This document shows positions 3,500 to 63,880 of a stretch of DNA of 64,000 bases, in pieces. Under the pieces are notes generated by a model. That model saw only the letters and a list, made by a program, of their open reading frames with translations, did no database searches and was not told the origin of the DNA. The stretch comes from Beroe forskalii. Its lineage: Eukaryota > Ctenophora > Nuda > Beroida > Beroidae. The stretch lies in NCBI GenBank assembly GCA_011033025.1, contig WFMF01000083.1, positions 310,001 through 374,000 of the forward strand, read 5' to 3'. Every line of letters begins with the position of its first letter. Within the stretch, counting starts at the first letter, position 1. The translations under genes were made by a program, and so were the position numbers.

Positions 3500-6400
3500 A
3501 TGAAGTGTCTGCTCGTGGCAGCCCTGTTTCTCGTGGCAGTACGCGCTGCTGAGATTACAGAGGAGGAAAATGTCCTGGTTCTCACTGATGAGAACTTTGA
3601 TGAGGCAATCGCCACCCACAAGCACATTCTCGTGGAATTCTGTGAGTTAAAACGCAGAGTCGTCATTAGTGCTCCGGGTGTATTTCTTCAGAATTCCTGA
3701 TGCGGTATTATTCACTCGAATTCACTCCTAATTTAAGTTTTTAACCCCTGGGATCTCACAGACGCCCCGTGGTGCGGACACTGTCAAGCCTTGGCTCCTG
3801 AGTACGCTAAAGCTGCCACCCAACTGAAGGAGGAGGAATCCGAAATAAAACTAGCCAAGGTAACTACTTTCTAAATTCCTTGAGTAATCCATTTTTCATT
3901 ACTATTCGAATATGAAATGGTACCTAGTACTCAATCAGCAATGATGAAATGAATCAATTACTTCATAATTTTCTCCTAGTATGAAAGTAATACTTTACAT
4001 CAGTTAATTATCTAACTAATTATTTAATTATCTAACTGCCCCCAAGGTTGATGCGACTCCTGACTCCATGAAGGATATCGCTGAGAAGTACGAGGTCGAG
4101 GGTTTCCCCACCATCAAATTCTTCTCTGACGGCTCCGTCAAGGATTTCGCTGGTGGCAGGACGGGTGAGGAGATCGTAGCATGGCTGAAGAAGAAGATGG
4201 GTGCTCCCTACACTGTCGTCAGCACTGTGGCGGATGTGACTGAGCATGTGGCTGCAGAGAGCCATGTTCTGCTCGGAGCATTCAAGGTAAGATTTTACCA
4301 AATCATAGCAAGAAAAAGGGTATGAATTTCCTCTCAGAAAATCTCAGAATATGCCGAGTATTATATAAGTATATACCACGAAATTCCAAAATATACCAAG
4401 CTGTTATGACAAGTTTTCTGCAAGTTCTAACCCGTATTTTCCTCAGGATCTCACTGGAGAGCCTGCTGTAGCTTACATCACTGTCGCAAAAGAGGAAGAT
4501 GGTCAGCTCTTCCTTATCACGGATAATGACGACGTCATGGCTGAGTTTGGGCTGGCTGATGGAGGTGTCATCGCTGTCAGAAATGTGAGTAATATAACGT
4601 TTTGAAATGGTCTTAATCCTCTTGTGATGTCTGTTTTAATATGAATGTGGATTTGGGGTACCGAACAGATCGTAGAAGTTCCCTTCATTCGTCATCAGGC
4701 GTATCCATCGTCCAGGTGTCCTTCGATTAAAAACACTGAGACATGAGTTGATCGAATCACTGCAACTTTGTACTGTGTTTTGTAGATTGAAATACCCCTG
4801 GCATTAACGAATGATCGTTATTTCAGTTCCCTGACGAACCTGAACGAGTTCCTCTGGAAGGAGCAGTCACTGCCACCTCAGTCTGGGAGCTCATGAAGAA
4901 CACCAACTTCCCTATCGTGGTAGAGATCAGTGCTGAGGTGAATTACTGAATTAACTGACATTTGATTCCAGGACAAAACCAGATATCAATATTTTAACCC
5001 CTTTCTATGTCCACAGACCTCAGTTTTTTAGCCCCATGTCACCAGACACAGGATCTTTAAATTCTTTTGACTTCCCCCTTTCCTTTTTCAATTTCCCAGA
5101 CCTCCGTTTTTTTACCCCATCCTTCCCCAGACTTCACATGATCTATTAACCCCTTTCCTTCCCCAGACCTCACACAGGATCTTCTCTGACGACGTGAGAG
5201 TGCACCACCTTCTCTTTGTGGATAAGACTAGCGAGGGGTACGAGACTCTGATGAGTGGGTTCCGGGAGGTAGCGAGGAAGTTTAACCACGAGATCCTCCA
5301 CATTATCGTAGATGTGAACAGTGAGGATACTGTCCATGTGTTGGAGTATTTTGATTTGGAGAAGACGGATGCGCCAGTGGATAGGATCGTTAATCTGAAA
5401 GGTTGACATTGCATTTCCCTTAAACATCATAATAATTATGTGAAGCAAACTTTCTTAAATTCGACAATCAACAAGGATGATACCGCTAATAATCTGTGAA
5501 TATCAAAGTCCCCCCTCCCTCTCAGCTGAAAGAAAACATGAAGAAGTTCAGCCCTGACTTCACCGAGATGACAGTAGAAAACCTGTCTACCTTCGCTCAG
5601 GACTTCCTGGACGGGAAACTCAAAGCTACCTTCGCTTCGGAGGAGCTCCCCGAAGATTGGGATGTCAATCCCGTCAAGGTGCATTTCAGATAGTTATTGA
5701 TTGGGATGCCAATCCCGTCAAGGTGCATTTCAGATTGTTATTGAGTGGGACTTCCTAAATAAGTCAAAGCTTATGCCATTTCTCTCGTTTCCCTCTTCGG
5801 TACGCTCCCTTGACCGCTCAGCTCAGGCCATGAATTCCCCTAACACTAAGTTCAACCTATTCTATTTTCAACAAGGTGCTCGTGGGAAGCAATCTGGAAG
5901 AGGTGGCAAGGGATGAGACTAAGGATGTCCTGGTGGAGTTCTACGCGCCATGGTGCGGACATTGCCAAAAGCTGGAACCTATCTGGAATGAGCTAGGTAA
6001 GATAAGAGGAATGAACAGGAAATTATTGACAATTTATCATTGATAACTTATAATTAGAAACCAAACTGACATCACTTTCCTTCCTTAATCGAATTATCAC
6101 TCTCATTGCAATCGGTTTACCACCTTGGTCTTTTCATTGATTAGTCACATTCCTTGATTCTTTCCCGCTCTCCTGTATTCTGATGATTGAAGTAAATTCT
6201 AATTTTCCTCTAATTGTATTCTATCCTACTTTCCTTAATTCTTTTCCTTGATTCTCTCCCACTTTTCTTTATTCTCCTACTTTCCATGATTTTGTCCCAC
6301 TTTCCTTGATTCTCTCCCACTTGATTCTGTCCCACTTTCCTTTGCCTCGTGACATCCCCTTCATCAGGTGAGAAGTACAAGGACCATCCTACCGTTGTCA

Positions 6401-6976
6401 TTGCGAAGTGTGACGCTACTGCTAATGAGTTCGATGGAATTACCGTGGAATCCTTCCCCACTATCAAGTTCTTCCCCAAAGCGTCCGGACCTAAGGTTTG
6501 TTATAAGTTTCCGGAAATTATCGACATTATAACCCACAGTTCAGGGTTGTTTTGATTTGCAAATTCGAACGTCGTAGCTTTTTCTCAGAGTCTGTTGATT
6601 AACACCCTTTCAATGTAAACAGTGCGCTCTCAATACAATAGTTCATAACCCTATTTTTGCATAGTATCCTTACTGAAACCAACATACATGAATTGCACTG
6701 TCTGGCACAGCTATATTTGCAAGTTCTCCCTAACTCAGCTATTTCTGCAATAACCTCTAACTCTCCTCACTACAGATGGTGAAGTACACCGGAAAACGGA
6801 CGCTGGAGGACTTCGTTGCCTTCCTGGAAGGACCTCACGATGATCTGCCTGAAGATGACGGTGTCCCTGAACATGAGGATGAGGACGAGGAAGAGGATGA
6901 TGATGAGGACGAGGATTATGATGAAGAAGAAGAAGATGAGGATGATCATCCAGAAGATTTTAGAGATGAGTTGTAG
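3500..6976 (+). CDS. Protein disulfide isomerase 1 (PDIA1/P4HB-like, ten exons)
   Basis: ER oxidoreductase that forms and reshuffles disulfides; in animals this family is also the beta subunit of prolyl 4-hydroxylase. Joined exons: 3500-3641, 3762-3859, 4047-4286, 4447-4584, 4827-4937, 5167-5388, 5526-5678, 5876-5996, 6368-6495, 6776-6976. They give 517 codons plus a stop with no frame break. Seen: signal peptide [16 protein letters not shown]; a domain with YAPWCGHC; b and b' domains; a linker with LPEDWD; a' domain with YAPWCGHC; the conserved cis-proline contexts GFPTIKFF and SFPTIKFF; a long Asp/Glu-rich tail; and RDEL as the ER-retrieval signal. The exon 6/7 junction is the least certain: the phase-0 pair 5388/5526 is used here, but the paralogue is phase 1 at this place. 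It has one intron (5679-5875) that PDI-2 lacks. A possible non-coding exon ends near 3090. Family assignment is very secure. Confidence 0.93.
4990..5166 (+). repeat. Tandem array of decoy 3' splice sites before PDI-1 exon 6
   Basis: Intron 5 ends with several diverged copies of the exon 6 boundary. Acceptor-like segments are CCACAG|ACCTC near 5,017, ACCAG|ACACAGGATCT near 5,046, TCCCAG|ACCTCC near 5,101, CCCCAG|ACTTCAC near 5,133, and the real CCCCAG|ACCTCACACAGG at 5,166/5,167. Pyrimidine blocks (ACCCCTTTCC) and the exon start (CACAGGATCT) are repeated too. This looks like repeated local duplication of the acceptor. Confidence 0.7.
5657..5744 (+). repeat. 44-bp tandem duplication containing the exon 7 donor of PDI-1
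   Basis: Two adjacent 44-bp copies (5657-5700 and 5701-5744) begin TTGGGATG, contain GTCAAGGTGCATTTC and differ at two bases. Each holds the last coding bases of exon 7 plus the GTGCAT donor. Reading through the first donor meets TAG within five codons, so only the first donor keeps the frame. Confidence 0.95.
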
Positions 6977-7678
6977 GTGTCTAACCCACATATCCCTGGA
7001 TTCTGGGCAAGTATTTTCACTGTTAAATTGTTACTTGGGTATTTAGACATTTTTAAAATGTAGTTATTTAAAGTTGTTATTTGTAGATAGGTATTAGTTG
7101 TCTTGTTTATCCTTGGTTATGGATAACAATCATTTTATTTATACTAAACACTGGGCTGACGTTTGTTCCCTTTTTGTATGTATTCAGAATTTATTTGTTG
7201 GAAAAACCGTCAGACCGTTTTAATTTATTATTCAGTTATTTTCAATTTCTATCATTTTGCCATCGGATTTTAGTATTAAATAATATGTATTGGTTTTTCA
7301 TTGACATGTTTTCTTTTTATTAATCAGACTGTTTTTCTTGCGGGAACTTGATCTAATGATATTTTCGACAATGCAGAACTTTCACTGAAACTCAATGTTG
7401 CCACATGTCACAAGAGGCTTTGATTGTTAACTAGTCCCGTTAATAACAAATAAAACCTCCTGAAAGTGTTTGATTATCATTGTTTAGACAGGCTATGAGG
7501 CTATGATGGAGCCTGATTACACTGCTTTAATGAGAGTGTTTCTTCTGATTACACGTGTGTTAATGCGTGTTACACGTATTGCACACCATCTCATGTGATT
7601 TATATAAGACGCTGAAGGTGGATTTCATCCTCAGAATTTATTTAGCCCACGTCATGATTCCGTCCCGATTATCTCAGC

Positions 7679-7806
7679 GGCGTATTAGCTTAAATCCTTG
7701 GAATCCCGAAATAGTCATGACATTGACCAATCAGCGCACGAGTTGACCATCAATTCGTGCTCTGATTGGTCAATGTTTCACGGACCTGTGGGTAAGCTAA
7801 TACGCC
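7679..7806. mobile_element. Foldback (MITE-like) element with paired CCAAT boxes, copy A
   Basis: Outer inverted arms GGCGTATTAGCTTA (7679-7692) and TAAGCTAATACGCC (7793-7806) enclose an inner inverted pair: CATTGACCAATCAGCGCACG from 7721, and GTGCTCTGATTGGTCAATG ending near 7775. No coding capacity. Related copies lie near 8.45, 44.16, 50.85 and 60.76 kb. The small size, inverted arms and dispersion suggest a non-autonomous DNA transposon. No clear target duplication was found. Confidence 0.7.
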
Positions 7807-8422: not shown

Positions 8423-8530
8423 CGGCGTATAATTTTACCTGCAATCGTCATGGCATTGACCAATCAGCACTCACATTTCTGGTCAACTCGCGCGCTGATT
8501 GGTCAATGTGCACTGAACATGTGGGTAAAC
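8423..8530. mobile_element. CCAAT foldback element, copy B
   Basis: It shares GGCGTAT, GGCATTGACCAATCAGC, the inverted partner GCGCTGATTGGTCAATGTG and the end GTGGGTAAAC with copy A. The outer arm on the right is degraded. Confidence 0.6.
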
Positions 8531-9537: not shown

Positions 9538-12500
9538 ATGAAGTGTCTGCTCGTGGCAGCCCTGTTTCTCGTGGCAGTACACGCTGCTGAGATTACAGAG
9601 GAGGAGGATGTCCTGGTCCTCACTGATGAGAACTTTGATGAGGCAATCGCCACCCACAAGCACATTCTCGTAGAATTCTGTGAGTGTTTAACAAATACCT
9701 GATATTTCTTATGAAAACGGTTGAGGATGCCTTATATTTCTTATGAGAACGGTTGAGGATATAAAATGGGTGTTCTTGATTTTAAAAGACTATTGATTGG
9801 TTAATGGTTATGCTGTTTCAGTGTTTCCATTAAAGCGAATCCATTGACTTGTTAACTCTTAGTAATGCATGATAATGTGAATTTTGAGTTTCACATTCAA
9901 ACGAAAGTTACAAAATTCTGCTTCTTAATGAAGTTGTGTTGTAAAGTTTGAATTTTAGAATACGAAATATCACCCGCAGGTATCATTAATCTCACATGCG
10001 CGGCTGGAATCAGCTCTTGCGTCAACAATCATTTATTCATTCATTTAATCAACAATGATATAATCACGCATTTAAATCAATGCTTCATTAACTCACTCAT
10101 CCCTCCTCAGACGCCCCGTGGTGCGGACACTGCAAGAAACTGGCTCCCGAGTATGCCAAGGCTGCCGGAGTTCTCAAGAGCGAGGAATCTGCTGTCAAAC
10201 TAGCCAAGGTATTTAAAATATTTCATATTTCAAGGTATTTCTTCAAGTCTTCATATCCTTAGATTTTTTAAACTGGAATGAGCTGAATCGAATTGAATAT
10301 ACCGTACATAATACACCTGGTTACTTCATTGCTCATCTATCTGGACCGACTTTTTACAAACTAAACATCTTCATTCCCCTCGCATTAACCTCTCCACCCC
10401 TTCTCCAGCTTGACGCCACCGAGCACAAGACCGCTGCCGGCAAGTTCGGAGTCAAGGGATACCCTACCCTCAAAGTGGTTCGTGGACGGAGAAGCCAAGG
10501 AGTACAACGGAGGCAGGACCTCCCCAGACATCGTCTCGTGGCTGAAGAAGAAGACCGGAGATCCCTGCACTGTGGCTGATTCTAAGGATGTTATCGACAC
10601 TGAAGTTGCTAACTCTCACTTCACTCTCGTCGGAGCTTTCAAGGTGAGACGGTGTTTAGATCGGATGATCGTTTTAGGAATGCACTGGAAATAATGGTTG
10701 GATTGGTGGAATTTGTTGAATTGAGTTTGTTGAATGAGTTGAATTGAGCCAAAATATCAAGTTTTTCTCAACCCCTCTATCCCCTTCGACTCCCCCTTTA
10801 CCCCTGCTTAACGTCTCCTTTACATCTCCTTTACGTCTTCTTTACGTCTCCTTTACCCCTCTCCATCGCAGGACCGTGCCTCTGAGGCTGGCGCCGCTTT
10901 CACTGCTGCTGCAGGTGACACTGACGGTGTCGTGTTCTTCGTGACTGATGACGCTGATGTTATGGCCGCTTTCGGACTTGCTGACGGAGAAATCGTAGCT
11001 GTCAGAGACGTGAGTGAAATGTGGGAATGGTATTTGGGGTATTTGGTTATGTTTTTAGAGAGTTTGAAGTAGTTTCAAGGACGGAACAACTCCTTGAAGT
11101 GGCGCTAAAATGAGTCATGTTGTTACTTTTCACTGTCATTCCATACCGCACATGATGGGATGAAGCACAAGCCACAATTATGTCTCGCAGAACACACCTA
11201 CTTTAAATAATAAAGATTAATTAACACTGCCACACCTCAGTTTGCCGAAGAGGAAGCCCAGATTAAGCTGGAAGGGGAAGTTACTGCTGATGCCATCACT
11301 GAGTTCCTGAGTGCCCACCGTCTACCTCTCGTTGTGGAGTTCAGCGACGAGGTAAGTAAAATAGTGGCACCATTGAATTTGGGGAAGGGATTGAAGGGGT
11401 TATCAATTATTTGATCCTCAGGGGTTGAATTATACCTACTTTCCATCCTCAATGTCAATCTTTGTTCAATATCCTTACTATCTGAAATCTGAAGTGTTAT
11501 CTTTTCTAACCACACCTTTCTACTTCAGACCGCCCCCATGATCTTCGGAGGAGACATCAAGAGCCACTACCTGGTCTTCTCTGACTCCACTGGAGAGGGC
11601 CATGGAGCCGTCTTGACCACTTTCCGTCAAGTCAGCAAGAGCTTCTCCGGCAAATTCGTACACGTGCTCGTCGATACCAGCAAGTCTTCCAACGACAGGA
11701 TCCTGGATTTCTTCGGAATCACCAAGGACATGGGAATCGTCGCCAGGATCATCTTCCTTTGTATATATTCTTCATTTTCAATTTGAAATGACTTCATTAA
11801 TCGGCAAATTATCATCAAAATCGTGTTACGTGTTTCTATCGAAATATCGCCACGTGCTCTTTGATAATTTAGTTACATGTTTAGTCTTCTGCTAATGATA
11901 ATCGATCAAATGCACCTGTTGACCGCGGCAAATTCAAAACAACAAATGTTATTCTTAATTGACATCTGTTTAATGGTTTCACATCAGCTTTGAGCCAAAG
12001 GTAGCGGCTCTTAACGGTGGTTACAGTGTTGTTTTGATACAAATGACCCTTTCTGCACCATTATTCGTTACATTGTTTTGCAATAAAAAGTGTGTACCAT
12101 TTAATTCAGATCCCTCTGAAAAGGATAATCCATGCAAAGCATCGTAGACAAAACAATGAAAAGGTTCATTTCTTTGTACAGTGCAGTATCAAATGGTCAA
12201 TGTGATGTTTTTTCTAAGCTTAGTTATTGACGTGGCGATGGCTGATTTTACGTAGAAGTGAGAATTCTAGACAACAGGTGCTTGAATAACTGTAAAAGTG
12301 TTAAAATTAACAGTAGCGAGGTGCTTAAAGTCCCAATACTTTTGCATACGTGTTTGTGACATTTGGCAATATTTCGTCAAAACATCTTTTTTAACTAGCA
12401 AAATTTTGGGAATCTCTAGTGTAAACACGATTTTTCGGCACTGTGGCCGCGCGGCTCAAACGCGCGCTGCGCGCGTCTGCATTCTTACGTGGCGATGTAC

Positions 12501-28643: not shown

Positions 28644-31560
28644 TCACAGCTCCAGTCGAGTAAGGAGTTGCTGTTTGAGGTGTGTAACCCGTAACCGGTG
28701 GCTTATCCGGGTATTGTGCGAGAAGTCTCCAAGGGCTACTTTGAATGCCTCTAAGGCTGTTGCGGAGTTGACTGATTTAGGGAGTAAGTTCCAGAGACGA
28801 GCTGACTTTACCCCGAATGAGTTGTCGTAGGCTGTTGAGACTGAACGTTGTGCCTTGTAGTTGAATGGCAGGATCTTAGCCCGTATTCCAAGACGTTCAT
28901 TACTGTAGAACTCTAAACCAGTGCTATTTGGGGCCTTGTTCTGCAGGATCTTCCAAGTATGGATCATCGTGTATCGTTCACGTCTACGCTGGAGAGACAT
29001 CAATCGCAGCTTCTTAAGCCGATCCCAATAGTCCATATCTTTGGTGCCAATTATCCGCTTAGTGAAGTAACGCTGGATAGACTCCACTGCCTGGATATCC
29101 TTGATAAAGTGGGGATCCCACACTGGGCAACAGTATTCCAGTCTGCTCCGTATCAAGGACTTGAAGAGGGTCAGCATTGTAAGCTCAGACCTGTCCCGGA
29201 AAGTCCCAAGGACCCATGAGGCGATCTTGCGTGAGTCACCAACATTATTTACTTGTAGGGTCCAGCTACAGTCGTCGGTAATGTAAACACCATGTCTCTG
29301 ACGGATGAGGTTGGCTGAAGAATATTTCCATCGGGTGTTGTGTGTATTGCCTCAGCTCCGCAGTGAAAGGGAGGTTTCTTAGAGGTGGACGAGTTGTTGA
29401 GACAGAAGTTCATTACCTCGAATTTATCCTGGTGGAGCACCATGTTGTTGTTCAACGACCAACTGACAACTTGATCGAGGTCTGTCTGTACAGGGCCTTG
29501 CATAACATGGTGATGATCTTTGACGCATGAGCTTAGTGTCATCTGCAAATGCCAGTGATTTTGACGAGAGGCAATTTGATGATCATGTCTATCACGTAGA
29601 GAATGAAGAATATGGGGACCCAGAACAGTTCCCTGGGGAACACCACCATCGACATTTGCGAATTCAGACTTTTTTGCCATCGACAACCACGGCCCGACGT
29701 CTGTTGCGAGGAATTCCTCTATCCATCTAAGCACAGTTTGCCTTTTGATACCGTAGTGTTCTAGCTTTGCTAGCAGGATTTTTGTGGTCCACTTTTGTCG
29801 AACGCTTTGCTATAATCCAGATAGATTATATCTAATTTCATTACCATCCTTAAGGCCCTTTGAGAATGTAGTCAGTGTTCCAAGAGTTGAGTTAGGCAGC
29901 TTGTCTTCCGGAAACCATGCTGATTGTCAGGAAGTATGCCGTTACTTTCTAGGTGGTCCACTAGACTGTTGCGAATGACTCTCTCGAAGATCTTAATGAT
30001 GTGAGATGTTATGACACTGGGCGGTAGTTTGCCGGGTCGGTTTTATTGCCTTTCTTGTAGATGGGTGTGATGTACTGCAGTTTCAGCCTCATCTGGAATT
30101 CTGCCGTTAGAGAGTGAACTGTCCCATAAGAGCCAAAGTGGAAGGGAAAGGGTATCTTGCAGCTGCAGAGGATCTTGTAGCTGGGATGTCATCATCGGGT
30201 GCTGTAGAGTAAGGATCTAGCTCCCCTATTGTTGTCTGATGTCCCCACAGAGAACTCTATGTCACTACTGAGGGTTGCAATTGAGGGTCTCCCAGCGAAT
30301 CAATGCAGGCTTCAGTCGACATTGTCCGGGTTACTAAACACACTAGTGTATTGAGCCTGGAGAATCTCAGCCTTCTCTTTGCGGATTTGTGCTTAGGGAT
30401 CCACAATCCTTCCTGAGTGGAGCAACGCTGACTTGCATTTTGAGTACTTCTTGGCGTAGCTGAAGAAGTATTTAGGTTATTTTTGATGGTGCTTACAGTA
30501 GCATAACTTTTCTTGCTGGTTGAGATGTGCGAGAATTTCATCTTGATTGCGTGTCATCAGACTAACTTCTCTTCAAGCCCCGGTAAAAGCATTTGAAGAT
30601 GGATTATGTGCCTTGAGAGTTGCAATCTTCTTGTTGAGTTTTCTTTTCTTCATTTTCAGGGTATTGATTTTTGGCCCTGAAGGTCCATTTCTGGATGCTC
30701 TTCCGTCGACTTTTCTGTGGGCCAGGCAAGTCACTTGGAGGACAACAAGACTATAAGGTGCTTGGTAAAACCATCGATATCATCCATACCATCACACAGA
30801 TTTCCCTTCAGGTGATACCAGTCAATCTCCCTTTAACATGTCATTCATAGCCTCAAAGTTACTGTGGAAGTTCACAGCTCTGAAAGAGAATGGGTCTATG
30901 ATCGGATCATGTTTTTTATATTGGAGATAGGGTTATGACCAATTAAGACTTCTACTAACAGGTGGTCTGAGATCCCAACTAAGGGTGGCTTAAGCAACTT
31001 TAACCTCGATCACGGCATTTGAGTTATTGGTTAGAATGAGGCCAAGGTATTGTTACTCTTGTAGAACCTAAAACGAGCTGGCTGAGGAAGTTACAGTCCA
31101 TGAATTCAAGTAGTTTCTGGCAAGCTTGTGTGGTGGGGCCAGTGTCTATTCCGCCAGTTTTCCAGTTAAACTCAGGAAGGAAGTCTCCCTGAGGTAAATG
31201 TCCCTGTTACTGGAAGAATGTAGGTCTAAACAGTTCTGTAGTTCTAGAGCATCTGAGAAAAGTCTGCATTTGCGAATCTGAGGGCGGTAAAGTAGGGCAA
31301 CAACCAAAAGGGATGCAATATATACGGTCAACAGGTTGTTGTAGTAATCCTTGAAGCTGTATTCAGCAGTAACTGTTAGCTGCTCATGAACATAGAGAAT
31401 GCATCCACCTCCTGCCCTATCATCCCTGTCTGATCTGAAGCTTTCAAAGCCTGTATTTCCACTTGAGCGTCTGTGAAGTGGGCATGGAGCCAAGACTCAG
31501 TTATTCCGAAGAACAAGGTTGGAGGGAGGGTCTCATCGTGAAGCAGGACTTTTTGCAAGT
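28644..31560 (-). pseudogene. LINE ORF2 remnant: endonuclease plus reverse transcriptase
   Basis: Recognisable pieces on the minus strand are: endonuclease (FFGITESWLHAHFTDAQ and RAGGGCILYVHEQLTV, 31,150-31,558); RT motifs TPIYKKGNKTDPANYRPVS near 30,005-30,070; NQHGFRKTSCLTQL near 29,890-29,930; LDYSKAFDK near 29,800-29,830; GVPQGTVLGP within 29,249-29,734; FADDTKL near 29,530-29,548 in another frame; and the post-RT region beginning LFKSLIRSRLEYCCPVWDP (28,644-29,177). At least three frameshifts separate these blocks. It once encoded the nick-and-copy enzyme of the element. Confidence 0.87.
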
Positions 31561-39966: not shown

Positions 39967-40838
39967 GTACTTTAGTAAGAGTAAGCAGGCAACATTTATC
40001 CATATATTTTGTACTATCAGGAATTTTCTCCTATCTGAATACCGATCTGAATCTTTTGCTTATTTTGGGCCTAGTTACATAATTACAATTTATATAACTT
40101 ACATTACATGTAACATACAATATGTAATTAGTAATACAACAAAGTTGCATAACTAATTACATTGTGTAACTTAAATTACGTTCTTGAATAACGAATACGC
40201 AATAAAACTGCGGATGTTTTATGATTTGCAGCTGCTTTGTTATTTAGATTCATATATTATCGGTAACATTTTCTTGCGTACTACCTTGAGTCCTTGTTCT
40301 ATTTTTCTTGGAATATTGGTACGTTCCTTTCACATAACATTGTGTGAAGTGCACCTGTTTCAAAATACGAGCTGAACATTTTAACATCTTATGTTGAGCA
40401 TGAAAAGTAGACAGTTTGACGCCAGAAACTCGCCATTCTAAGCCCTGATAGTGACGTCACTATATACTGCTTTTCCTATTTTTTACGTAATCCTATAAAT
40501 CAAACAAAGAACGCAGCTACTTAGGTGTTCAAGCTTTATTGAATATCTCAATTAAATAGGTTATTGTCTGGTAATGGATATTTTCGTGTTCAACATACTT
40601 TTCTCAATCTTTTGACGTCAATCGCATTTTACTTTCCTATTGTTACTTAAAGATTCTCATATTACTTTTTGATTTATTTCTTTCCTTCATTAAATTAATT
40701 TACTAAATGAGGAGTTTTTGATTGATGTCTTGTATCGCAAATTTCGAAAATATTTCGACCGAAATCAAAGAATTAGTCTCTTTTTTGCCGCCAAATATGT
40801 GATATTCCCTGCACTAACATCGCCTCATTTACTCCCAG

Positions 40839-40900
40839 GAATCACCATGACAATACCTCCCCTAACCTGGTACTCTAACACTCCCCAGGAATCACCATGA
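40839..40900 (+). promoter_or_regulatory. Upstream ORF created by a duplicated GPCR start
   Basis: A 50-bp tandem duplication repeats the acceptor-like CTCCC(C)AG, GAATCACC and the start ATGACAATACCTCCCCT. The first ATG (40847) opens a 17-codon frame that stops at 40898-40900, overlapping the true ATG (40897) as ATGA. If the upstream acceptor is used, this uORF would precede the receptor and could lower or couple its translation. The regulatory effect is inferred. Confidence 0.6.
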
Positions 40901-43900
40901 CAATACCTCCCCTTAACGTGACTGCTCACTCCATCACAACTCTCCCTTTCGAGACGTACTGGGTCACAGCTTTCTCTGGGTCCACCACCCCCAACTTCAA
41001 TGCTCGGACCTACCACACCTACGCTTTCGCTGATCAGGTGAGGTGTGGACCATGGTCTGGGATAATTGACCAATTTATGAAAATTTAAATCCTTCTAGCT
41101 CAATGGGTAAGTTAGAACATAGTTGTTGTGAGAGGTTATTCAGGCACAAAACTGAAAGAAATGAAAATAATTTCCTCTCTGATCATCAGATTCCCGAAAT
41201 TTCAAATCACAAATATTATGACCTATTTCTTTCCTTCAGATCCTCGCCATAACCCTGGCAGTTCTAGCTGTCCCCGGGTTTGCAATGAACCTCCTGGTTT
41301 TGAGGAGTTTGTTCTATAGGATCGGGAAGATGAATGCTCCTACTCGACAACTTCACAGTCATATGATGATAGCTAACACCATACTGCTGGTGATCTGTGT
41401 GCCAGCGATATCGTGAGTGAAACACAAGGATTTTTTAACTGTTTCAATTTTGTCAAACACAAGGAAATTATTTACTAAGTTAGACTGAGCTAAAGGTTGT
41501 CAAACACAAGTTATTCTTTAAAATTGATCAGAGTTACTTGGTTTTTTGGTGATGTAAGAACAATTTTTCATTCAAATCGGTCAGTATTTTCAATATTCTT
41601 TTCCAAATATCCAAAGTTCTACTTTGGATCCAGATCCTCCCTCCCCAGGTTATCTCCCTGTACAACGGGAGGCCTGAATTCAAGGACTCCAAGCTTCACA
41701 TGGTCTATCAACACAACTTCATCTTCTGTAACATCAGCGGTTACATCTTCAACGTTATGATCCGGATGATAATCCATATCAGTACGGTGCTGGCAGTGGA
41801 CAGGGTCATGGCAGGTTGGACGTTGGTCACGTGATGTTCACTGTGATTGGTCGGCGGTCATTGGTCGTTTGAAACTGGACGTATCTTAGTCCTTAGAAGT
41901 TGTGCTGATGCGGTCTTAAATGTACATTTACCAGCTTTTCCATATTACATTTATACTGTCACCATCATTAATCAGAACTCACAAAAAATGAACATTAGGA
42001 ATGACCATCTATTTCTTTTCAGTCCAGTGCCCTCTGTTTCACAAGTTCAAGGTTCAGAAGTGGGGCTACAACTGGCTGCTTCTCTTCATTTGGATCCTGA
42101 ACCTCCTCACCATGACCACGCCTTTCATTAAGGGCAGGTGGGCATCAAATTTAAGAAAGTTTTATTCTTTTTTCGTCCATTTCATACTCATAATTGCAAT
42201 TTATTGCGATTGATGTTCTACATGTTTTAAATCTAAGGTCAGCTTGTCCATCGCCTATCACTTGGCCTTCAATCTTTAAAACTAGTGTTCTAAGTGAAGA
42301 AGTGATAGAACTCCGCATCTCCACTCTCATTCACGCAGAAATCTAACACTCCTCCTTTTCCTCAGTTACTTCAAGCACATAGTGTACGAGTGTATCTGCA
42401 ACTGGAAAGCCCTGGACATGGATACAGGGATCCTCAAGAGGAACTCTCCTGCCCTCAACACTGTCTCTCTGCTATTCTTCTTTGGGATTCCCTACAGTCT
42501 TACCAACGTCATCACCATCATCTGCTGCATTTGGGTTAGCAGAAATGCAGTGTGCTTATTGCCATACCAAAATGCCACGCGTAAACAACGTGCAAATATT
42601 ATGACACTGTTTTTGATAAATTCCTACGCTGAAAAATGGATACCTCTGATCTCTACGCCTCTCTTTTACTCTTTAGTGAGTGAGTGAGTGAGTGGATCTT
42701 ATCCCACATGGGCACGTGAAAAACCTTTTAGATGAAGATATAATTAGCTGTGCTGAACGTTAAACTTAAAGATAAGCAACGTTCTCTAAAAACTTTCTGT
42801 ACATTTGTTCACTAAACCTCCCTTACTCGGAATGTTTTTGTTATCATAAACCACACAGCTGCCCTCGCGTGTAGTTTACTCATTTCAACTTTCCTTTGAA
42901 GTATTGTTCAGCTATTCAGTACTCATTGTACCCCGAAACAATAATATTTAGGCCTATAATAGGTACGCATATAAGTCTCATCATGTTGGAAAATAAACTG
43001 GTGTGGTTGTGGTACTTACTCGCCAAACTTCTCTATGTGTAGTAAGGTCCAGTTGCGTCAAATAACAAACGAGTAGGTTTTAATTAAAAAAGGAATCTGA
43101 AACTCATGAAACATTTCATACTATATAGGTTGCTAAACACGTATATCCCTGTGTGGCTCGCGCGGCGCGCTTCCCCGTAGGGAAGCGCGCGGCGCGTACA
43201 CACACCTATGCGGGCTTAGGAACTATATAGGCTACGCCCTTTGTTCAAAATGTTTAGGCATCTGAAACCTCTTCTCCCCTTGGGTCTCTACTGCTTACTT
43301 TCTGTGAGGTCAAAATAAAAATTTTTCGCAGGTTATAATTCTGGTTATTTTTCCCAGGTTATAATTCTAGTTATCTTTCCCAGGTTATAATTCTGGTGTT
43401 GAGGAAGAACCTGAAAGTAGAGCGAGTAGCTGGAGATAAGATGTCCTATACCACCTGCACTTCTGTCATGGCAGGAGGAGCTAATGCCTACCAGTTGCTT
43501 CATATTAATGAAGAGGAAACCAACCTGGATAACGAGGAAAAACCAGCTGAAGAATCAGAAAAGCCTGCCGTGAATTCTGAAGGACCAGCCCTGGAATCGG
43601 AAAAACCAGCTGAGAAATCAGAAAAACCATCCTTAGAAAAACAGAATTCCTCTCCAGTTCCTAATAATGATAAGTCTCGCCCTAGAAGCACCATCACCCA
43701 GGAATCATCGTACATGTTGCTGAGTAATGGTGTTAATGGGAAGTCAGGAGGGGGAAGGAAAAGTAAAGCTAGGAATAGCACTGCGAAGAGTTTTCCTAAA
43801 TCTGTGTTGATGGCAGGTTGGTTACTGTCAGCTTCCATGTTGTCGTCTTTAACTTCTTTTTGATGACATCCCATGATCCTTGATGATGATTTTTTCGTTA

Positions 43901-45749: not shown

Positions 45750-45811
45750 AGACAGTGGAGACAATATTATTATTAAAATTATCAGGCAGTTTTAACTTTG
45801 AGAATAGGTTT

Positions 45812-47280: not shown

Positions 47281-50225
47281 TCAACTTACACCAGGACATT
47301 CCTCCTCTACCGCATCCACTGCTATCTGAGAGAGTTTCTGTTTCCAGTCGGAGATGGAGAGGAACAGCTGGTTCTTGTAGTCCTTGGTGAGGTTGAGGGT
47401 TGGGATAAGGGTCGTTTCAAAGAGTCGGTGGTAGATCTCGGAGAGTGCGGTTACTGGACTGGAAGCGAGCTTCTCGTATTTTACTACCTGTAGGAGAAGG
47501 GAGATGTTTGTTAAAACTTCCGAGCAAATTACGCATGAGATACTTAAAAGGAACTTTTGAATTTGAAGGAGTTTGAAATTCATGAATTTGTCCAATTTTT
47601 CGGTTCTGGCCACTATGAATTTGTCGTATATCCTCAGCACTTTCCTACCCTTTCTCACACCCCTGACCTTGGTAAGATTATTGCTATTACCTGATACAAG
47701 TAGTGAGAGGAGGGTTGGTACTGTAAGAACCCTGCTATCCTTGCACACAGCTGCTTGGAGAACTCCTGAACACTCTCCTCCGTCACATCCCCCAGTTCCA
47801 TGAGCTCTGAGATGATGGCACGCGGGTCACGTGATACGTACGCCACTTCCACAGACACACGATCCACCATTTTCCTGGGGAATATGAAGTGTGATAGAGC
47901 TGATATCTTCATAAAAACACAGAGATACGATCCACCATTTTCCTGGGAATATGAAGTGTGATAGAGCTGATATCTTCATAAAAACACAGAGATACGATCC
48001 ACCATTTTCCTGCGGAATGGAGTGTGATTGGGCTAGTGATTTCACAAAAAACATCATAAAACGATCCACCATTTTCCTGAAGTGCAGTGATTGGACTCGT
48101 AAAAACATTATAAAACTACATGTAGACTTCATATAACTATATGCGTAGACTAGGTAATTCAGCCTGGAACATGGCAAGGTGGTCATTAACTTGATTTAAA
48201 ACCACAAAGCTTCAATTAAAGCGGCGGAAGTTGCTTATAAAGCGGTGCTCTCTCTGTTCATTAAGTTATATTGGAAGACAGTCGTAAATGTGCTGCACAA
48301 TTTGGAGAGAAATATTCAAGTATCGCAGTTTGATTATATTCTGATATTCGAATGGAGGATGGAATTCGTCATAATCTTCTAACAAGAAGATTTCTAAGAA
48401 AACAACACCATCTCAGTTTGAGAGCTGTGCAACTGCAAATGCCCTCGGACACACCGGGCTCATGAAATAACAGCAAAGCTGACATCTCTTAAAAAAGATG
48501 GTGTCATATTGTGACATATCTCAAAATAAGGTGATGTATTTTGTCTCAAGTGTACTCACAAGTCCCAGTCTTCAGCATGTCCCTCCAACACTGACATGTG
48601 CTTCTTGACACACTCGTTCTCTAAAGCACCTGCTGTGAAGCCTTGACACTTCCCTTCAGGGCAGAACTGAAACGAAATGTGGTGATTTAGTGATAACAAT
48701 TCGAGGGTTAGAGCTTCAGAGCATAGAAATAGTCAACATTGAAAAGGGCATACGATGTGTGCTCATTTTGCCATGAAGAGGCTTGGTGGCTTGAATTTCC
48801 TTCAACTTTTGACTCAATTATCACCATTGACTCATTGCGTTTGACCGGCCCCAATAACTCACCTTTGCCAGTGATTTGGAGCTCATCAGGACAGTCTGAT
48901 GAGTTTTGTAGTAGGTAACCACCTCATCAGATATGATGCAGTGTCTGATCTTACTGAAATCAGCCTCTGTTTTGATGACTGAACTGATTGAGGGCAGGTA
49001 GAATATGTTCTCATCATGAGCAATCAGCTTTCCAAGAACATCAGATCCCCCTCCTGAGAGAGATATGGTTTAGAGGTTTATGTGTCTTTATATAAGTGCC
49101 AGCAGGGAATAAAATGTCCTTTCCCTATCAGAGTTTTCAGTGAAATTTCGTGCCATAGTCATTCGGACGGAATTCGAGCAGTTTATTAATCAATCCTAAT
49201 CGTAGTGCTAAAAGTAAGATCAACAGTACGATAAGCTTACTCTTTTCCGAGATGATCAGAACGTGTGCTCTCTTCGTTAGATCAGTGATATCATTATCCT
49301 CCTCCTCCTCCTTCTTCCCCTCCTCTACCTTCACTTCCTGATTGGTTTCTTCCAGGTTGATATCTTTCAGAGCACTCTCTAGAGGATTAACATCATCCTT
49401 TTCTGTTTCGCTGCCTGCTGCAGCTTCCTTCATCGTATCTGGTTTGTTGCCAATGTTCAGCACGTAATGGGGCACTTCTCGTTTCTTCTTCTTTTCTTCC
49501 TCCTCTTCATTGCCTTCCCCTGGCCACTTGCCCAACAGGTACCTAGGGAGGAATAGTTTGTGATTTTAGAAGCTAGGTTCTGAAAGTTCATGAGTAGATG
49601 AGGCCAGTACCATCAAATTCTAAAATCTCCTCAAATAAATTGAATGATAAGTAATTCCTCCCTTGAATCCTTCGATTCAGTGGCTGCCCGCTGTTGGAAT
49701 CTAGGCAAAAACATGGCAAATAATTATAAAAAGTTAAGTCGTCTCCCAAATATATTTGGCCTAAAACCTGAAAGAGTCCTTCATTTCGTCGTGTTTTCCC
49801 GACTGTTCGTTTATCTTGATTTCCATCAAATGGTTTTCCTTCTTCATAGCTGATATGTCGATCTTCATCAGTCGTATCTGGTGGAAATTCGAGTATTTAT
49901 GGACGACTTCAATGTAGCATTGAATGCTTATCCAGACAACATTTTGCCATCCATTCCGACATGTCGACATGAATCGTATCAAGGTTTTCCCAGGACATTT
50001 TCATTTACTGGCAAGATCTAGACAGGTCTTGGTAAAATATTTAACAGTAAAACTTCACCATGTTTTGAAGTAAAACTTCCCCATGTTTTCCACACCCACC
50101 TGTTCGTCAATGGTGCTCTGGTACACATCCGCCTGCCACACAAACAATGACGATACAATGGTTACCAAGACAACGATCAGCGTGAAGTAGCAACAGTTCT
50201 TAATCAGCGTGACAACCCGAGGCAT
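47281..50225 (-). CDS. Golgi carbohydrate 6-O-sulfotransferase-like protein (seven exons)
   Basis: Type II membrane enzyme predicted to move sulfate from PAPS to a 6-hydroxyl of galactose, GalNAc or GlcNAc in the Golgi. Minus-strand exons: 50100-50225, 49768-49877, 49241-49542, 48863-49053, 48560-48666, 47691-47874, 47290-47487 (or to 47281 with a direct stop, GVS then TGA). All phases agree; about 408 residues, normal for the family. Seen: N-terminal MPRVVTLIKNCC then one hydrophobic anchor (about 13-30); a stem with a KIDISAMKKENHLMEIK helix and a Glu/Lys-rich insert; 5'-PSB-like loop AHVLIISEKRGGSDVLGKL with ENIFYLP; 3'-PSB motif VSRDPRAI; then VVKYEKLASSPVTALSEIY, the usual segment near the end of this family. 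The PAPS loop is altered (usual RSGSS), so activity is not assured. Acceptor-like CCCTAG lies 14 nt before the ATG. The true 3' end is uncertain. Confidence 0.82.
47861..48090 (-). repeat. Quadruplicated 3' splice site of sulfotransferase exon 6 (67-68 bp unit)
   Basis: On the minus strand, CAG|GAAAATGGTGGATCG occurs four times. The plus-strand GATCCACCATTTTCCTG begins at 47861, 47929, 47996 and 48063. The lowest copy is the exon boundary used (47874). The two middle units also repeat the TGATAGAGCTGATATCTTC segment. All four keep an intact CAG acceptor. Confidence 0.93.
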
Positions 50226-50905: not shown

Positions 50906-50936
50906 GTCCGACCGTCAAATGTGGTGTACACTGTAC

Positions 50937-55200: not shown

Positions 55201-58200
55201 TAATGATTAACTTGATCAGGTATTAGAATTTGCTTCAATGCTGGATTATTATTACGAATGAAAAACCTGAAATCATGCACTAAACTTATAGGTTATGGAG
55301 TCATCAATTCGCTCCTTGAAAGCTTGAAGAAGGTGAGGCATCACTACTTCTCTAGTCTTCACTACTGATATTGCTTACTCGGCTTTGCTTTTTAAATGCG
55401 AAAGGATAAATCTTCCCTTTTTATCAAATATGGAATTATTAAAAATTAAATAATCGTTTGTTGAAATCTGCCTGTTTACAATCAGGGGATTTGGGACTCT
55501 AAGGTCCTTAGAGTCTAACGAATGCACATTGCACATGCTGCTCACGTATTTACCTGGTTTGGGACCATTGTTCTTGTTAGTGTTCTTGTTATTGGTGTTG
55601 TTCCTGACTCGTGGTTTGGGTTTGGGCGGGGGTCCCAACACCGGCTCAGTTCGCAGAGTCCTCAGTCGCTGGAGTTGCTTAGCTGCAAAACACGCATTGA
55701 ATTAGAGCTTTCAAAAACGGTGTTTTTCAATTATACAGTCAAAAATGGATATAAAAGAATAAAAGTGGACAGACTCTACACCAAACGATTTTGCATGGTT
55801 TCCATATAATAGTTTTTTGCATGAAAAATTGTTGTGACAACTTTCTACAATATGTTGGCTATAAGGAAATGGTCATTGGGTTGCTGAGTTATGGGGTTAA
55901 AACCATTCACGCCGCGCACGTGAATCCTTAACCACCACGGAGATTTTTTGAGATGGAAAAATGAGACCCTCAACAGAAGTATTTCGAAATGGGGCTCCAC
56001 CTAACCACCAAGTGGCAGAACTCTGGCCGTGGCGGTCAAAAAACCACGCGCACCACGCGCGCGTGAAACTACTAAACCTACTCCACCACCAGGCACCTAC
56101 CCAACATGATTGAGGTAAAACTACATCTCATCTCTCTGCTGGAATTGGTTTCAAATCTCATTGATTGAAACTTCTCTCAATATTCGCCACTCTTTGTGGT
56201 TAATGAGAGTACTTGTCCCCCTAAATTTGCTAATTTTGGCATATTTTTCACCACTTTTTCATTTTGACCCCCAGATCTTCAGATCTAAGAAGTACACCGA
56301 AGTATGCTACTACGCTCCAATCCCCCGGCTCGGTCACCCGCCAAGCGTGAATTCTGCGCTGAATTAACAATTTAAATTTGACATTTTCTTTCATTGTCAC
56401 ATCTGGAGGTTTTTACAAGGGGTATAAAAGGGTGGGATTGGATAAAGGGGTATAATAATGCACAGTACTCCCCCCTTCTCACCTCGGGTAGCCTGTTTGT
56501 CCGGGGCAGCCCCCCCCCCTCTAAGAGGGCCATTAGGCCCTATGTCACAGGACCCCATCCTCTCACCTCCCCCCCCCCCCCCTAGGATACCACCCTCTCC
56601 CCTCCCCCCTGGAGGTACAGGACCCCACCCTCTCACCTCGAGTAGCCTGTTTGTCTGGGGCAGCTTCCTGGGGTCTAGCTGGTCCAGTGTGTGGGGTGAG
56701 CAGTGTACTGGTTTCCTTGGTATGTACACTGGTACTGCTGCGGGGTGGACTGCCGGCTTCAAGGGACCCGCGTCCTCCTGCGGGGGATAGGGCGGGGGTT
56801 AGGAGGGAATTGGAGGGGGAATCGGGAGGGAACTGGGAGGATATTAGGGGTAATTGTGAGGGAATTAGGAGGGTATTAGGGATAATTGGGAGGGAATAAG
56901 GAGGGAATTAGGGGAAAATTAGGAGGAGGATTGGGAGGGAATTAGAAGGTGATTGGGAAGGGGGTTAGAGGGGATAAGGAAGGAATAAGAAGGTTCGTTG
57001 GAGCCACTGTCTCAGTTTGAGGGATTATTTTACCACTGTCTCCCAGAAGTAAAGAAGCAAGGAAAATTATAAGTCTAGCTGTACAAAGCAATCCAGGCGC
57101 CATACAGTTCATTTTACCGTACGCGCTATTTGATGCTCGAATTAAGTTCAGCATATTTACTTGCTGATATTGTATTAAATTCTATCATATTATTAATGCT
57201 ATCATAATCCCGAGATTTAATCAAAAATCTAATTTCCTAATTGAAATGTAAAGCATGTTGACATGCAGGATTGCCGATTTGACGATTCCTCAATCAACTC
57301 ATCGAATAGATATGCCGATCGTATGTGACGCTTTCGTATGTGACATTATATAATACATGGCTCGCAAATAATAATAATGTGGTTGACTGGTTGAAGATGG
57401 TTTTCTTATCAAGGCTTGAACTAACGAATTCATTCCGTCAAAATGTATAATTTTCGGAGAAAGTTGAAATATGGTTGATAAAGCTGTCGGCTCCAAGGCT
57501 TAAGATGTTTTGTAATTCACTAAAAATGGTTAGTATTTTAGGCTCCAACTAGCTATCTATCTACATTTATAAATTCTTAAAATTCAATAAAATAAATAAT
57601 TATGTTTAATTTAAATCAATAATGAATAATCAATTGTCGCTGAAATCATTGACAAAAGTGCTTCGGCTTCAAATCAATCAGTCTCCAAAACAAGCTTCAT
57701 AATGTTCGGGACCTTGCATAATGCATGTTCTGTAGGAGCAAATCAGAGAAGGATCTGCCTGCATATACCAACCCCTGCCACTGCTCTCTTGCTTCCCAAT
57801 TCCCACGAAACTCTTGAGCGACTCCCACGTTCCCTTCTTCCTCTTCTCTCCCGTATCCTTGGTGTCAGTATCCGAGTAGAACGCGACACTGCCTGTGTAG
57901 GGCCGGTCTATGATCACGGTCTTCTGACGGATCTTCTTCTTCTTCGACAGGTCCGTGAAGGTTGATCCGAAGGAGGGGGGAGTGAAGGGTGTTCCCAGTG
58001 TTTCGCGTTCTTGACTTGGTGACTGACTGGTAAATGTCCGTTCTAGACTTGGTGGCGTCCGTTTCAGACTTGGTTGGGGTCCGTTCTAGACTTGGTGGTG
58101 TCCGCTTCAGGCTGGTTGAGAGCGTTCCAGAATTGGTGGCGTCCGTTTCAGACTTGGTGGGGTCCGTTTGTGGCTGCTGGAGGAGCGGTCGAATGAGGCA

Positions 58201-61200: not shown

Positions 61201-63537
61201 AATCACGTGGTTTGACAGGCAAAATAATGCTTTAAGGGTATTTTCCGTCACATTATTTTCACTTATATTGTGTTACATATTATGATATTAAATAGGAGCT
61301 TTCTGCATATAAAATAAGACGCATTTAAAATTTTAAAACATAATTATGTCGATTCTAAAATTGAAATCATCATAAATTTCTGCAGTACTTGGTTTTATTC
61401 CTTTGCATAACTAGAATTTGATTATCATTGAAACAAAATCTCTTCGAAGAATCAATAAATTGTGCTTAATTTTGCTCTTCTTTTGTGAATAAAGCCGCGT
61501 GAATTTAATTTGCAACAAAGCTATAAACAATAATTAATAATAAAAGTCGTCTTGAGCCTTTTATATGACATTGTGATGGAGATTAAATGACGATTTTATA
61601 GCTCCCAAGTCCCAAGGGAATAAAACTGATCAAAGCGGCAAGTTACTACTGCAGTAATAAATTAATAGGATTCTTACAGTAATCTTGGGAATTCTGGGAT
61701 CTAGACATACTTTACACCTTTACAATGATATTTTAAAACTCTTTTTGCAGCTTGTGTACGATCTGAATGAAATAACTTTCCGACTGCACTTATAGTGTGA
61801 ACTTTTGCAGTGTGACCCGATGTTGGAGTGAACATTTATCACAATGAACTTGGGTAATAAGCTCAGTTCATCTCTCCTACAGGAAGACTGCCATTTTGTT
61901 TACAGCTTGTTTGTTTGTGCTAGGACTCTACTAGAAGATATGTCTAGATATCATCTAGATATCCAATAGTAAAGCCACTAGATATCTAGATATTATCTTG
62001 ATATCTAGTACTCATATCTAGATATTATCTCTTCAACTCCTTGACAACAGCTCACATATCCTATTCATATCTAGATATTATCTCTCCAACTCCTTGACAA
62101 CAGCTCACATATCCTCAGGTTCGTGACTGCTATGAAGAAAATGAGGCAAATGACGGAGGAGTAATTTGGCGGGAAGGGAGGATTCTATTCGGCAATATCA
62201 GACAATATACAGTGATATGTAGAGAGGAGGGCACCTCTTTAGTCAGGACCTCTCTCGAATGGGAGATATGAGGGGAGGGTAATTGGTAGTTTATAAAGGA
62301 GTAACGTGCCCGGGGATTGATGACTCACAAACTCACGGAGATATATCGTAATGATGATGCTGTGTGTTTAGAGCACTCACAGAAAGTGAAGATTGAAATT
62401 AGCATGGAATGTTTAAGAGGGGTCAATAACTTTGAAACATTGAAACTTTCAAAAATGAAACACAAAATGTACTTTCAAATTTTAAAACCTTCTTCTCGAT
62501 GTCCACTTCTGGCTGGGGGTTGTCAGGGTCTATGGGAGGCAGGACGCTGTACAGGGACTTACTCTCCATGTGGTGGTGCAGCTAGGGTCTGTAGGTGACC
62601 CGTTTTGTACCTGGCGGTTTCAGTAGCTATTTAGTGACAAATATGTATTTGATCTCATTGGGTACATAAAACAAATACTCAAATATCAATGGGTCAAATA
62701 AATCATATCCATATTTAAGCCCAGGAGGGTTTCAAATCAAATAATGAGAAACATACCCGCTCATCTTGAGAGAGCCGTCTACCCGGGACATGCGGGTTTT
62801 CAGCTTCAGCTGCTTGTTGTACACCCGCATCAGGTCGTTACGCTTGCTTTCGAAGATCTCACGGTCCTTGATGGGGATCACGCCTGGAGATGATGTGTGA
62901 GGTGAATCCCTTTTATCAATCGAAGTTTGGTACAGAAACAAAGATCAATGAAGGACAAGAAACTCAGAGACATTTGAGACACTCATTTGCGGAATCAGAG
63001 TTAGTAGTTAGTACACAGAATATCTGGATTTCTCACCTGAACATGACTCAAGGGACTGCAGGTCAGCGTTCTTGTTTGCCTCCTTTAACCGGGCAATCTC
63101 CTTGTGTAACTCCTCCACAATAATAGGGTACTTGGCAATGTGATGAGATACCGTGTGCAGATTAGGCCGAATCTAAGGAGAGGGGATGTTACGAGTTTCT
63201 GAAAATTGGTACAATCACAATGCTTAGGTACCTATCGCTTAGTACTCACTTTAGCTTTGAGGTAAAACAGGTCATATTGTTGGCATCCAAACTAAATTTC
63301 CAAGAACACCGGCCTAAGAAATAAGGATTCCCAAAAAAAACCCCCAAGCCCTGACCTTTGTTTTGATTCTCTTGGCCCTATCAGCGTACTGCAACGTGTT
63401 CCTGCTTTCATCAAACAGGTAGTTATCAGGGGACACATGGGCTATCATTACAGTCTTACAGTTCCCACCCAGTGAGTCCTTGAGGAGTCGAGTTAGCTTG
63501 CTGTCTCGGTAGTTCACATACGACGTCGTGTTGTTAC
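52234..63537 (-). CDS. Kinesin-8-like motor protein (KIF18/KIF19-like), 5' end outside window
   Basis: ATP-driven microtubule motor; this family walks to plus ends and limits microtubule or cilium length. Minus-strand exons: 63356-63537, 63037-63172, 62757-62883, 62489-62588, 59773-59895, 59444-59578, 59117-59238, 58750-58898, 58487-58600, 57773-58279, 56637-56777, 55554-55682, 54569-54682, 54190-54306, 52234-52388. The first encodes the end of the motor domain: [46 protein letters not shown]. Next come the neck and coiled coil ([20 protein letters not shown]), a helical stalk ([18 protein letters not shown]) and a Ser/Pro/Lys-rich tail. About 780 codons are visible, which with the missing motor fits a KIF19-sized protein. 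Phases agree except as noted: exon 62489-62588 contains an in-frame TAG as its third codon, and exon 57773-58279 has two compensating shifts in a minisatellite. The ATP-binding P-loop exons lie beyond 64,000. Confidence 0.82.
53220..53950. mobile_element. Palindromic element of four related units (two forward, two inverted)
   Basis: The core CGTCAAAAAATTGG occurs near 53,347 and 53,518, and its inverse (CTAATTTTTTGACGG or CTATTTTTTGACAG) near 53,630 and 53,800. Each is followed or preceded by a segment related to GTGCTAACTTTCGAGATATA and TTTTGGTACA. The whole makes a roughly 730-bp palindrome of about 175-bp units inside the last kinesin intron. Non-coding. Confidence 0.7.
54190..54682 (-). 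other. Duplicated pair of kinesin tail exons
   Basis: Two homologous phase 1-1 exons: 54569-54682 encodes [19 protein letters not shown] and 54190-54306 encodes [18 protein letters not shown]. Both end at CGAG|GTCC, weak donors at matching positions. If those donors are ignored, each frame runs to its own stop (54507-54509 and 54107-54109), so they could instead be alternative last exons. Transcripts are needed to choose. Confidence 0.65.
56483..56670 (-). repeat. Duplicated 5' splice site of a kinesin tail exon (about 154 bp apart)
   Basis: On the minus strand GCTGCCCCAGACAAACAGGC with TACTCGAG|GTGAG ends the exon at 56637, and a near-copy GCTGCCCCGGACAAACAGGC with TACCCGAG|GTGAG ends at 56483. 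Both encode AAPDKQATR. The extra 154 bp is not a multiple of three, so use of the second donor changes the frame. C-rich runs (CCTCTCACCTCC) between them are repeated as well. Confidence 0.88.
58035..58170 (-). repeat. 21-bp coding minisatellite in kinesin tail
   Basis: About six copies of ACCAAGTCTGAAACGGACGCC-like units encode SLKRTPP or SLERTPP heptads. Two units have lengths other than 21 (near 58,073-58,077 and 58,108-58,125). Between them the exon frame contains TGA and TAG, but the frame is restored after the second. Ser/Thr-Pro sites suggest a phosphorylated tail (inference). Confidence 0.8.
59395..59431. repeat. 37-bp perfect hairpin in a kinesin intron
   Basis: AGATTAACTGGGGACATA, one T, then TATGTCCCCAGTTAATCT: 18-bp perfect arms. 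Same architecture (18+1+18) as the hairpin core near 39.9 kb, but unrelated sequence. Confidence 0.9.
60750..60835. mobile_element. CCAAT foldback element, copy E
   Basis: GTTTACCCACAGGTCC, ATTTGACATTGACCAGTGCACG and the inverse CGAGCACGCTGATTAGTCAATG around ACGAGTTGACTGTAAACTCG. It shares the ACCCACAGGTCC end with the inverse GGACCTGTGGGT of copy A. Confidence 0.65.
62013..62116. repeat. 53-bp tandem duplication
   Basis: Copies at 62013-62065 and 62066-62116 both start CATATCTAGATATTATCTC and contain CAACTCCTTGACAACAGCTC. Nearly identical, non-coding. Confidence 0.93.
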
Positions 63538-63880
63538 CTGAACACAAGGAAATGTTTCTTAGAAACATCTAAAAGAGGTAGGTGAAACATGCAACCTCTA
63601 GAACTTCTAGACTACAGTTGGCATACTGGGTGGTGTTTTTACCTGGACGCAAGGAAATGCATTTTAGAAACATTTTAAAAAGATACAGCCTCATAACTTC
63701 TAGCGTTGGCATTCGAGGTGAAATAAAAGTTCTAGAGGTTGTATGTTTTTAAATGTTTCTAAGGAATTTTCTTGAGAACATTTAACAACATACAGCCTCT
63801 ATAGAACTTGTAGAGTTGGCATACAGAGTGGTGTTTTTACATGAACACAAGGATATGTTACTTACTACTTAGAAACTAGG
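63511..63880 (-). repeat. Repeated 3' splice site of the kinesin motor exon (about 90-110 bp units)
   Basis: The real acceptor (minus: TTGTGTTCAG|GTAACAACACGACG) is at 63537/63538. A second unit has TTGCGTCCAG|GTAAAAACACCACC at 63642/63643, and a third near 63,840 has GTTCAT|GTAAAAACACCACT with the AG lost. Shared flanks include TAGAAACAT, CAGCCTC and AACTTCTAG. The upstream units look like diverged copies of the exon edge. Confidence 0.8.

Follow-up and report, generated by a model that had tools for sequence, protein, structure and literature searches.

In the genome of the ctenophore Beroe forskalii, the splice sites that lie within short tandem duplications very probably reflect a heavy local load of tandem duplications and minisatellites in non-coding DNA, with duplication coverage sloping from tolerant introns to intolerant exons and the splice sites caught on that slope without being targets themselves. 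The analysis started from a stretch of 64,000 nucleotides (the window; positions 310001-374000 of contig C947 in a 216-Mb assembly of 1134 contigs), for which an earlier sequence-only note had listed seven exon-intron boundaries with adjacent copies of their own splice site and had suggested a genome-wide habit of duplicating boundaries. That habit is not borne out, since 7.9% of splice sites in the window are spanned by duplications as compared with 9.4% of intronic positions 40-250 bp from an exon, and the corresponding values outside the window are 8.1 and 15.8%. What does extend beyond the window is the phenomenon itself, as duplications across splice sites were found in unrelated genes elsewhere, with 45 spanned sites distributed over 17 of the 43 stretches (the window stretch counted among them).

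The comparison set consisted of 269,625 bp in 42 stretches from other places in the same genome, which were picked via kinesin, dynein and myosin exons and via DNA matches to a stretch of the window gene PDI-1. Splice sites were placed with a semi-Markov gene finder trained on three window gene models and Pfam-matched exons and then on its own predictions. The gene finder recovered 56 of 78 introns bracketed by Pfam matches, a figure that is not independent because Pfam exons without stops were also used in training. Exons scoring at least 10 gave 606 sites, from which arrays on contigs C169, C164 and C414 with more than three predicted sites each (47 sites together) were left out before counting. 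Of the remaining 559 sites, 101 lie on the window stretch (65,050 bp), 97 of these within the window proper, and 458 lie outside. The use of blastn as the single detector was dropped when short-period arrays were missed, and for this reason tandem duplications with units of 15-250 bp were called by pooling the hits of local self-BLAST, a gapless period scan and Tandem Repeats Finder (TRF). A site was treated as spanned when it lay inside an array with at least 5 bp on each side (n = 45), and a looser set with at least 3 bp comprised 52 sites.

The three window gene models were made by hand. The PDI-1 model comprises ten exons (3500-6976) and has a full open frame; the best 120 of its 5914 relatives are all at most 57% identical to it, and the usual name among those that are named is protein disulfide-isomerase. 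The models of a GPCR gene and a sulfotransferase-like gene likewise have full open frames, where the donor of GPCR exon 2 is weak and was picked to keep the frame. When these two stretches were translated without splicing and searched against Pfam, no match was obtained, and the names GPCR and sulfotransferase-like are therefore those of the earlier note.

The sampled DNA carries a heavy non-coding load of local tandem duplications and minisatellites. By the union of the three detectors, arrays make up 8.4% of the sequence on the window stretch and 14.2% outside it, and the control coverage of exon bodies is 4.0%. These arrays are beyond chance: TRF hits number 261 in the 334,675 bp of real sequence and 3 in a single order-2 Markov shuffle of it, and gapless hits 1190 and 0, a comparison that covers TRF and the gapless scan and not self-BLAST. 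A fundamental question is whether splice sites fall within arrays more often than such a load predicts. In the window, 8 of 101 sites are spanned versus 7.9 ± 2.8 under random relocation (circular shift, 300 shifts), such that the count of spanned boundaries is the one expected from the repeat load. Outside the window, 37 of 458 sites are spanned versus 58.4 ± 6.5, and all 300 shifts gave at least 37. When the two most repeat-rich contigs, C790 and C897, are set aside, the outside count becomes 19 of 419 (4.5%) against an intronic control of 11.2%, with the dropped arrays left out on both sides. Boundaries thus show no excess over introns and are depleted outside the window. The earlier note had itself named a lack of enrichment relative to matched intronic controls as speaking against its proposal, and no such enrichment was found; its worry that the cases owed something to ascertainment was justified.

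The distribution of arrays around the junction has the form of a slope. Over all 559 sites there is no junction peak in array coverage, which rises from 3.1% at 45 bp into the exon to 9.3% at the junction and 15% at 30-60 bp into the intron (~13% on the donor side and ~17% on the acceptor side). Moreover, the homology-supported sites (n = 118) give 1.7% at -45, 9.3% at 0 and 19.5% at +45, and 10 of these 118, a set that includes one window boundary, are spanned at 5 bp or more.

How would such a slope come about? Duplications would arise blind to splice sites, either through slippage or through microhomology-mediated joining, and their copy number would change afterwards. Those inside coding sequence would mostly be cleared by selection, as the lower coverage there suggests, and those at an exon edge would survive if the copy beside the intact exon gives the normal junction and the remainder turns into intron. 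A by-product is that some introns contain an active splice site in anything from two up to dozens of nearly equal copies. Several points weigh against this explanation from repeat load. Window coverage is humped: from 8.9% at the junction it climbs to 15.8% at 30 bp, then drops to 9.6% at 100 bp and further to 5.4% at 150 bp (37 sites). The window's intronic control falls from 11.9% at 40-100 bp to 7.0% at 100-250 bp with the value for sites in between, such that in the window alone boundaries and near introns look slightly richer than deep introns, on small numbers. The outside sample has no such fall (16.1% at 40-250 bp and 16.7% at 100-250 bp). Splice sites come mostly from a self-trained predictor, and some predicted exons within arrays (e.g. 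C790:10641-10690) are probably false and inflate the spanned count. The outside sample is small and limited to motor-protein families and PDI matches, and the spanned sites are clustered, with 12 of the 45 on C790, 8 on the window's contig and 6 on C897. Selection enters the explanation by inference only, and use of the extra sites could be hinted at by the finding that splice dinucleotides are better retained in the full set of arrays, as described below.

One alternative is that duplication is boundary-specific, with splice sites, the pyrimidine tract or AGGT acting as hotspots that feed alternative splicing and intron gain. Six clear cases within 64 kb would fit this idea, as would the surplus of acceptors over donors among the window's arrays (6 of 50 versus 3 of 51 at 3 bp or more) and the position of window sites slightly above the level at 100-250 bp into introns. 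Against it stand the absence of a junction peak over all sites and the depletion relative to introns outside the window, and at 3 bp or more donors (26 of 281) and acceptors (26 of 278) are overall hit equally often. Nor are the spanned sites enriched for AGGT, as no excess of AG/GT (here and below, a slash marks the splice junction) was found at spanned acceptors (7 of 24 versus 85 of 254; Fisher P 0.82) or at spanned donors (13 of 21 versus 146 of 260; Fisher P 0.65). Unit length shows no clear frame preference, with 15, 8 and 16 of 39 sites having a smallest period of 0, 1 and 2 modulo 3. Boundary hotspots are for these reasons very unlikely. Repeats made or miscounted by the assembler are the least probable explanation of those weighed here. 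In favor of it, the sulfotransferase-like array contains two 67-bp units that match perfectly over 68 bp, and an apparent one-base frame break in PDI-2, the neighboring paralogue of PDI-1, suggests an imperfect consensus. However, the unit differs from boundary to boundary, and a doubling would not be expected to give three or four copies of differing divergence. The TRF match has a median of 86% across arrays, and most copies are therefore too diverged to be brand new or to result from simple doubling in the assembly.

A further alternative is that the arrays are functional, in that copies are kept to tune expression by unproductive splicing or stochastic choice. From the sequence of the extra sites, alternative splicing and decay switches are possible. 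When three window genes were spliced in silico, 10 of 11 alternative sites led to premature stops and one kept the frame. In PDI-1, a premature stop follows from the donor copy after 5722 and from each of the acceptors before 5017, 5024, 5100 and 5178; the same holds for both upstream acceptors of the GPCR exon at 43384 and for all three upstream acceptors of sulfotransferase-like exon 6. The in-frame case is the PDI-1 acceptor before 5131, which adds 36 nt and scores 10.2 versus 9.3 for the normal acceptor before 5167. This pair of acceptors, 36 nt apart, is a candidate for alternative splicing of 12 residues. For the duplicated GPCR start box, the frame that begins at the upstream ATG is short and runs into a stop. 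Also in favor of function, most spanned sites have further good site matches within their array, although those counts take in look-alikes across the whole merged array. Over all 33 arrays, the splice dinucleotide is retained in 93.7% of copies, as compared with 85.5% at mirror positions (P = 0.013); in the 14 verified arrays the values are 98.6% and 94.0% (P = 0.25). Controls without edge correction (same-dinucleotide and any-position) looked significant or nearly so, with a stronger effect for the same dinucleotide. Firm selection for extra splice sites was rejected, given P = 0.25 in the verified set once the distance to the segment edge was controlled. Since AG and GT are kept at least as well as at mirror positions, the duplicates are not being purged. 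Taken together, functional arrays are quite improbable. A related and more speculative idea, which we also hold to be improbable, is that the arrays act as evolvable dials, where stochastic choice among copies would determine how many transcripts carry premature stops, and gains or losses of copies would shift gene output or start new introns; it supposes that many introns of this lineage hold such copies, and builds on the 4.5-9% of sampled splice sites that lie in tandem arrays.

Returning to the explanation from repeat load, what became of the seven boundaries that had been named? All seven stretches (Table 1) were caught by the united detector, as were two further sites, a predicted donor (56594) and one acceptor lying slightly beyond the window end. 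Six of the seven do have their splice site repeated in adjacent copies. The kinesin tail donor is not secure: the repeat there is coding, and the ab initio exon end at 58154 falls within it at a donor, CAA/GTCTGA, that is weak by eye and has no homology support. The PDI-1 exon 7 donor, the GPCR exon at 43384 and sulfotransferase-like exon 6 are clear in TRF, and the GPCR start exon and the acceptors of PDI-1 exon 6 and the kinesin motor exon are less regular or more diverged. At PDI-1 exon 6, positions 5002-5077 resemble 5086-5164 at an offset of 84 with 74% identity including gaps, and at exon 7 there are equal donors after 5678 and 5722, each scoring 3.9. The GPCR start box AATCACCATGACAATACC occurs at 40840 and 40890 with an acceptor before each (scores 7.6 and 8.6). 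Sulfotransferase-like exon 6 has four acceptors, before 48076, 48009, 47942 and 47874, that score 7.6-9.6. At the kinesin motor exon, acceptor-bearing copies lie at offsets of 105 (77%) and 303 (80%), with more matches at 201 and 108, and the far copy at offset 303 has AT instead of AG.

Table 1 Boundaries named in the window and larger splice-site arrays elsewhere in the genome
Feature	Location	Strand	Repeat	Remarks
PDI-1 exon 6 acceptor region	window, 5002..5174	+		exon starts 5167; diverged duplication
PDI-1 exon 7 donor	window, 5655..5750	+	44 bp x 2.2, 94% (TRF)	exon ends 5678
GPCR first coding exon	window, 40834..40913	+		acceptor and ATG box in two copies, 50 bp apart
GPCR exon beginning 43384, acceptor	window, 43321..43397	+	26 bp x 3.0, 92% (TRF)	
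Sulfotransferase-like exon 6 acceptor	window, 47850..48079	-	67 bp x 3.4 (TRF)	exon begins 47874
Kinesin tail	window, 58036..58182	-	21/43-bp coding minisatellite	in open frame; donor weakly predicted
Kinesin motor exon acceptor	window, 63511..63864	-		exon begins 63537; diverged units
Kinesin acceptor	C897, 44265		56 bp x 28.8	homology-supported; 46 good site matches in merged array
Dynein donor	C712, 67186		55 bp x 11.9	homology-supported; 9 good site matches in merged array
Dynein donor	C580, 383853		49 bp x 12.1	homology-supported; 12 good site matches in merged array
Myosin acceptor	C225, 1033085		34 bp x 8.1	homology-supported; 6 good site matches in merged array

Larger arrays of splice sites occur elsewhere in the genome. 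At least two good matches are present in the array for 41 of the 52 sites spanned at 3 bp or more, and at least four for 21 of them, where a good match is any match in the merged array, look-alikes included, with a score exceeding the 25th percentile for predicted sites. On C790, a dynein exon (10309-10439, minus strand) has the acceptor CTACAG/GTGTTAG, and this 13-mer has 15 exact occurrences, the last at 11195. An array of 43 bp x 18.0 (10480-11254) lies just upstream of this exon in the intron, and one of 33 bp x 17.3 lies next to it. Across C790:10420-11832 (minus strand), an acceptor directly abutting a donor-like GT is repeated, in a non-coding look-alike of the dual-specific array of UBC discussed below. 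Six pairs of arrays on different contigs are related in sequence; a dispersed repeat family as the seed of the arrays was rejected on this count, and the mostly unrelated sequences between contigs suggest that arrays originate locally.

Some further observations concern the PDI paralogues and other loci. Intron 7 of PDI-1 (5679-5875) is absent in PDI-2, where the exon is continuous at 12754, which would represent either gain or loss; both of its ends read AAG/GTGC, a 7-bp direct repeat. The 44-bp duplication at exon 7 copies sequence of this intron too, and the duplication is therefore later than the intron. The frame break of PDI-2 lies in its third exon (~10413-10475), where two frames are needed, and would reflect a decayed gene or a consensus error. 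In C291:171201-174881, Pfam matches place a pair of kinesin motor exons (model ~221-264 and 266-300) in several tandem copies at one locus. In C712:67027-76215, dynein exons occur on both strands within a few kb of one another, and the 55-bp repeat that lies near each of them changes orientation as well, a layout that is either an inverted duplication or an assembly palindrome. Dynein heavy-chain matches at C534:78781 and C1024:1426554 have reported open frames of 3010 and 3715 amino acids, as if nearly intronless; in the 9.6 kb fetched for C534, a plus-strand stop-to-stop scan gave a longest frame of 1833 amino acids versus the reported 3010. In the window, open frames at 28647-29809 (minus strand) resemble, by eye, a reverse-transcriptase remnant.

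The idea that splice sites are duplication hotspots, when held against a matched control, is unsupported. In its place stands a quantified picture in which a minisatellite-rich genome duplicates splice sites in line with its repeat load, with coverage falling from intron to exon. Moreover, natural arrays of near-equal splice sites provide good material for studying how the spliceosome chooses among identical neighbors.

How do these arrays compare with known systems? The minisatellite of human IFI6 (6-16) is said to provide multiple splice donors, as reportedly described by Turri et al. in 1995, and its unit is reportedly shorter than the 49- and 55-bp units found here. As reported for IFI6, a minisatellite unit here contains a splice donor, such that many donors lie in a row, and the IFI6-type trait of several normal-strength site matches per array recurs at the 41 sites with at least two such matches; unlike IFI6, which is one human gene, the donor arrays here lie at dynein exons. 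Among the literature matches listed, no measurement of the share of an animal's splice sites in tandem arrays was found. In the potato RdRp gene, a tandem duplication crosses the boundary between intron 1 and exon 2 (PMC4974935). As there, the duplicated unit here includes the 3' part of an intron together with the acceptor and the beginning of the exon; however, the new spliced potato intron was demonstrated by RNA-seq and by comparison with relatives, whereas the present cases are known from sequence alone. The UBC gene contains a tandem array of dual-specific AGGT sites that serve as acceptor or donor, with coding units and reported stochastic splicing (PMC10809524). The C790 array beside the dynein exon, with its 13-mer repeated 15 times on the minus strand, resembles this arrangement; unlike the coding units of UBC, the arrays here are mostly intronic, and they too have been read from genomic sequence only. 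Finally, introns born by duplication are described for Drosophila and other species (PMC2891723, PMC3443670). The likeness to these, including the Drosophila cases (PMC2891723), is that a local tandem duplication doubles the splice signals. In contrast to those models, in which an exonic AGGT is duplicated, the spanned sites here have no AGGT excess, and the copies seem to have made existing introns longer.

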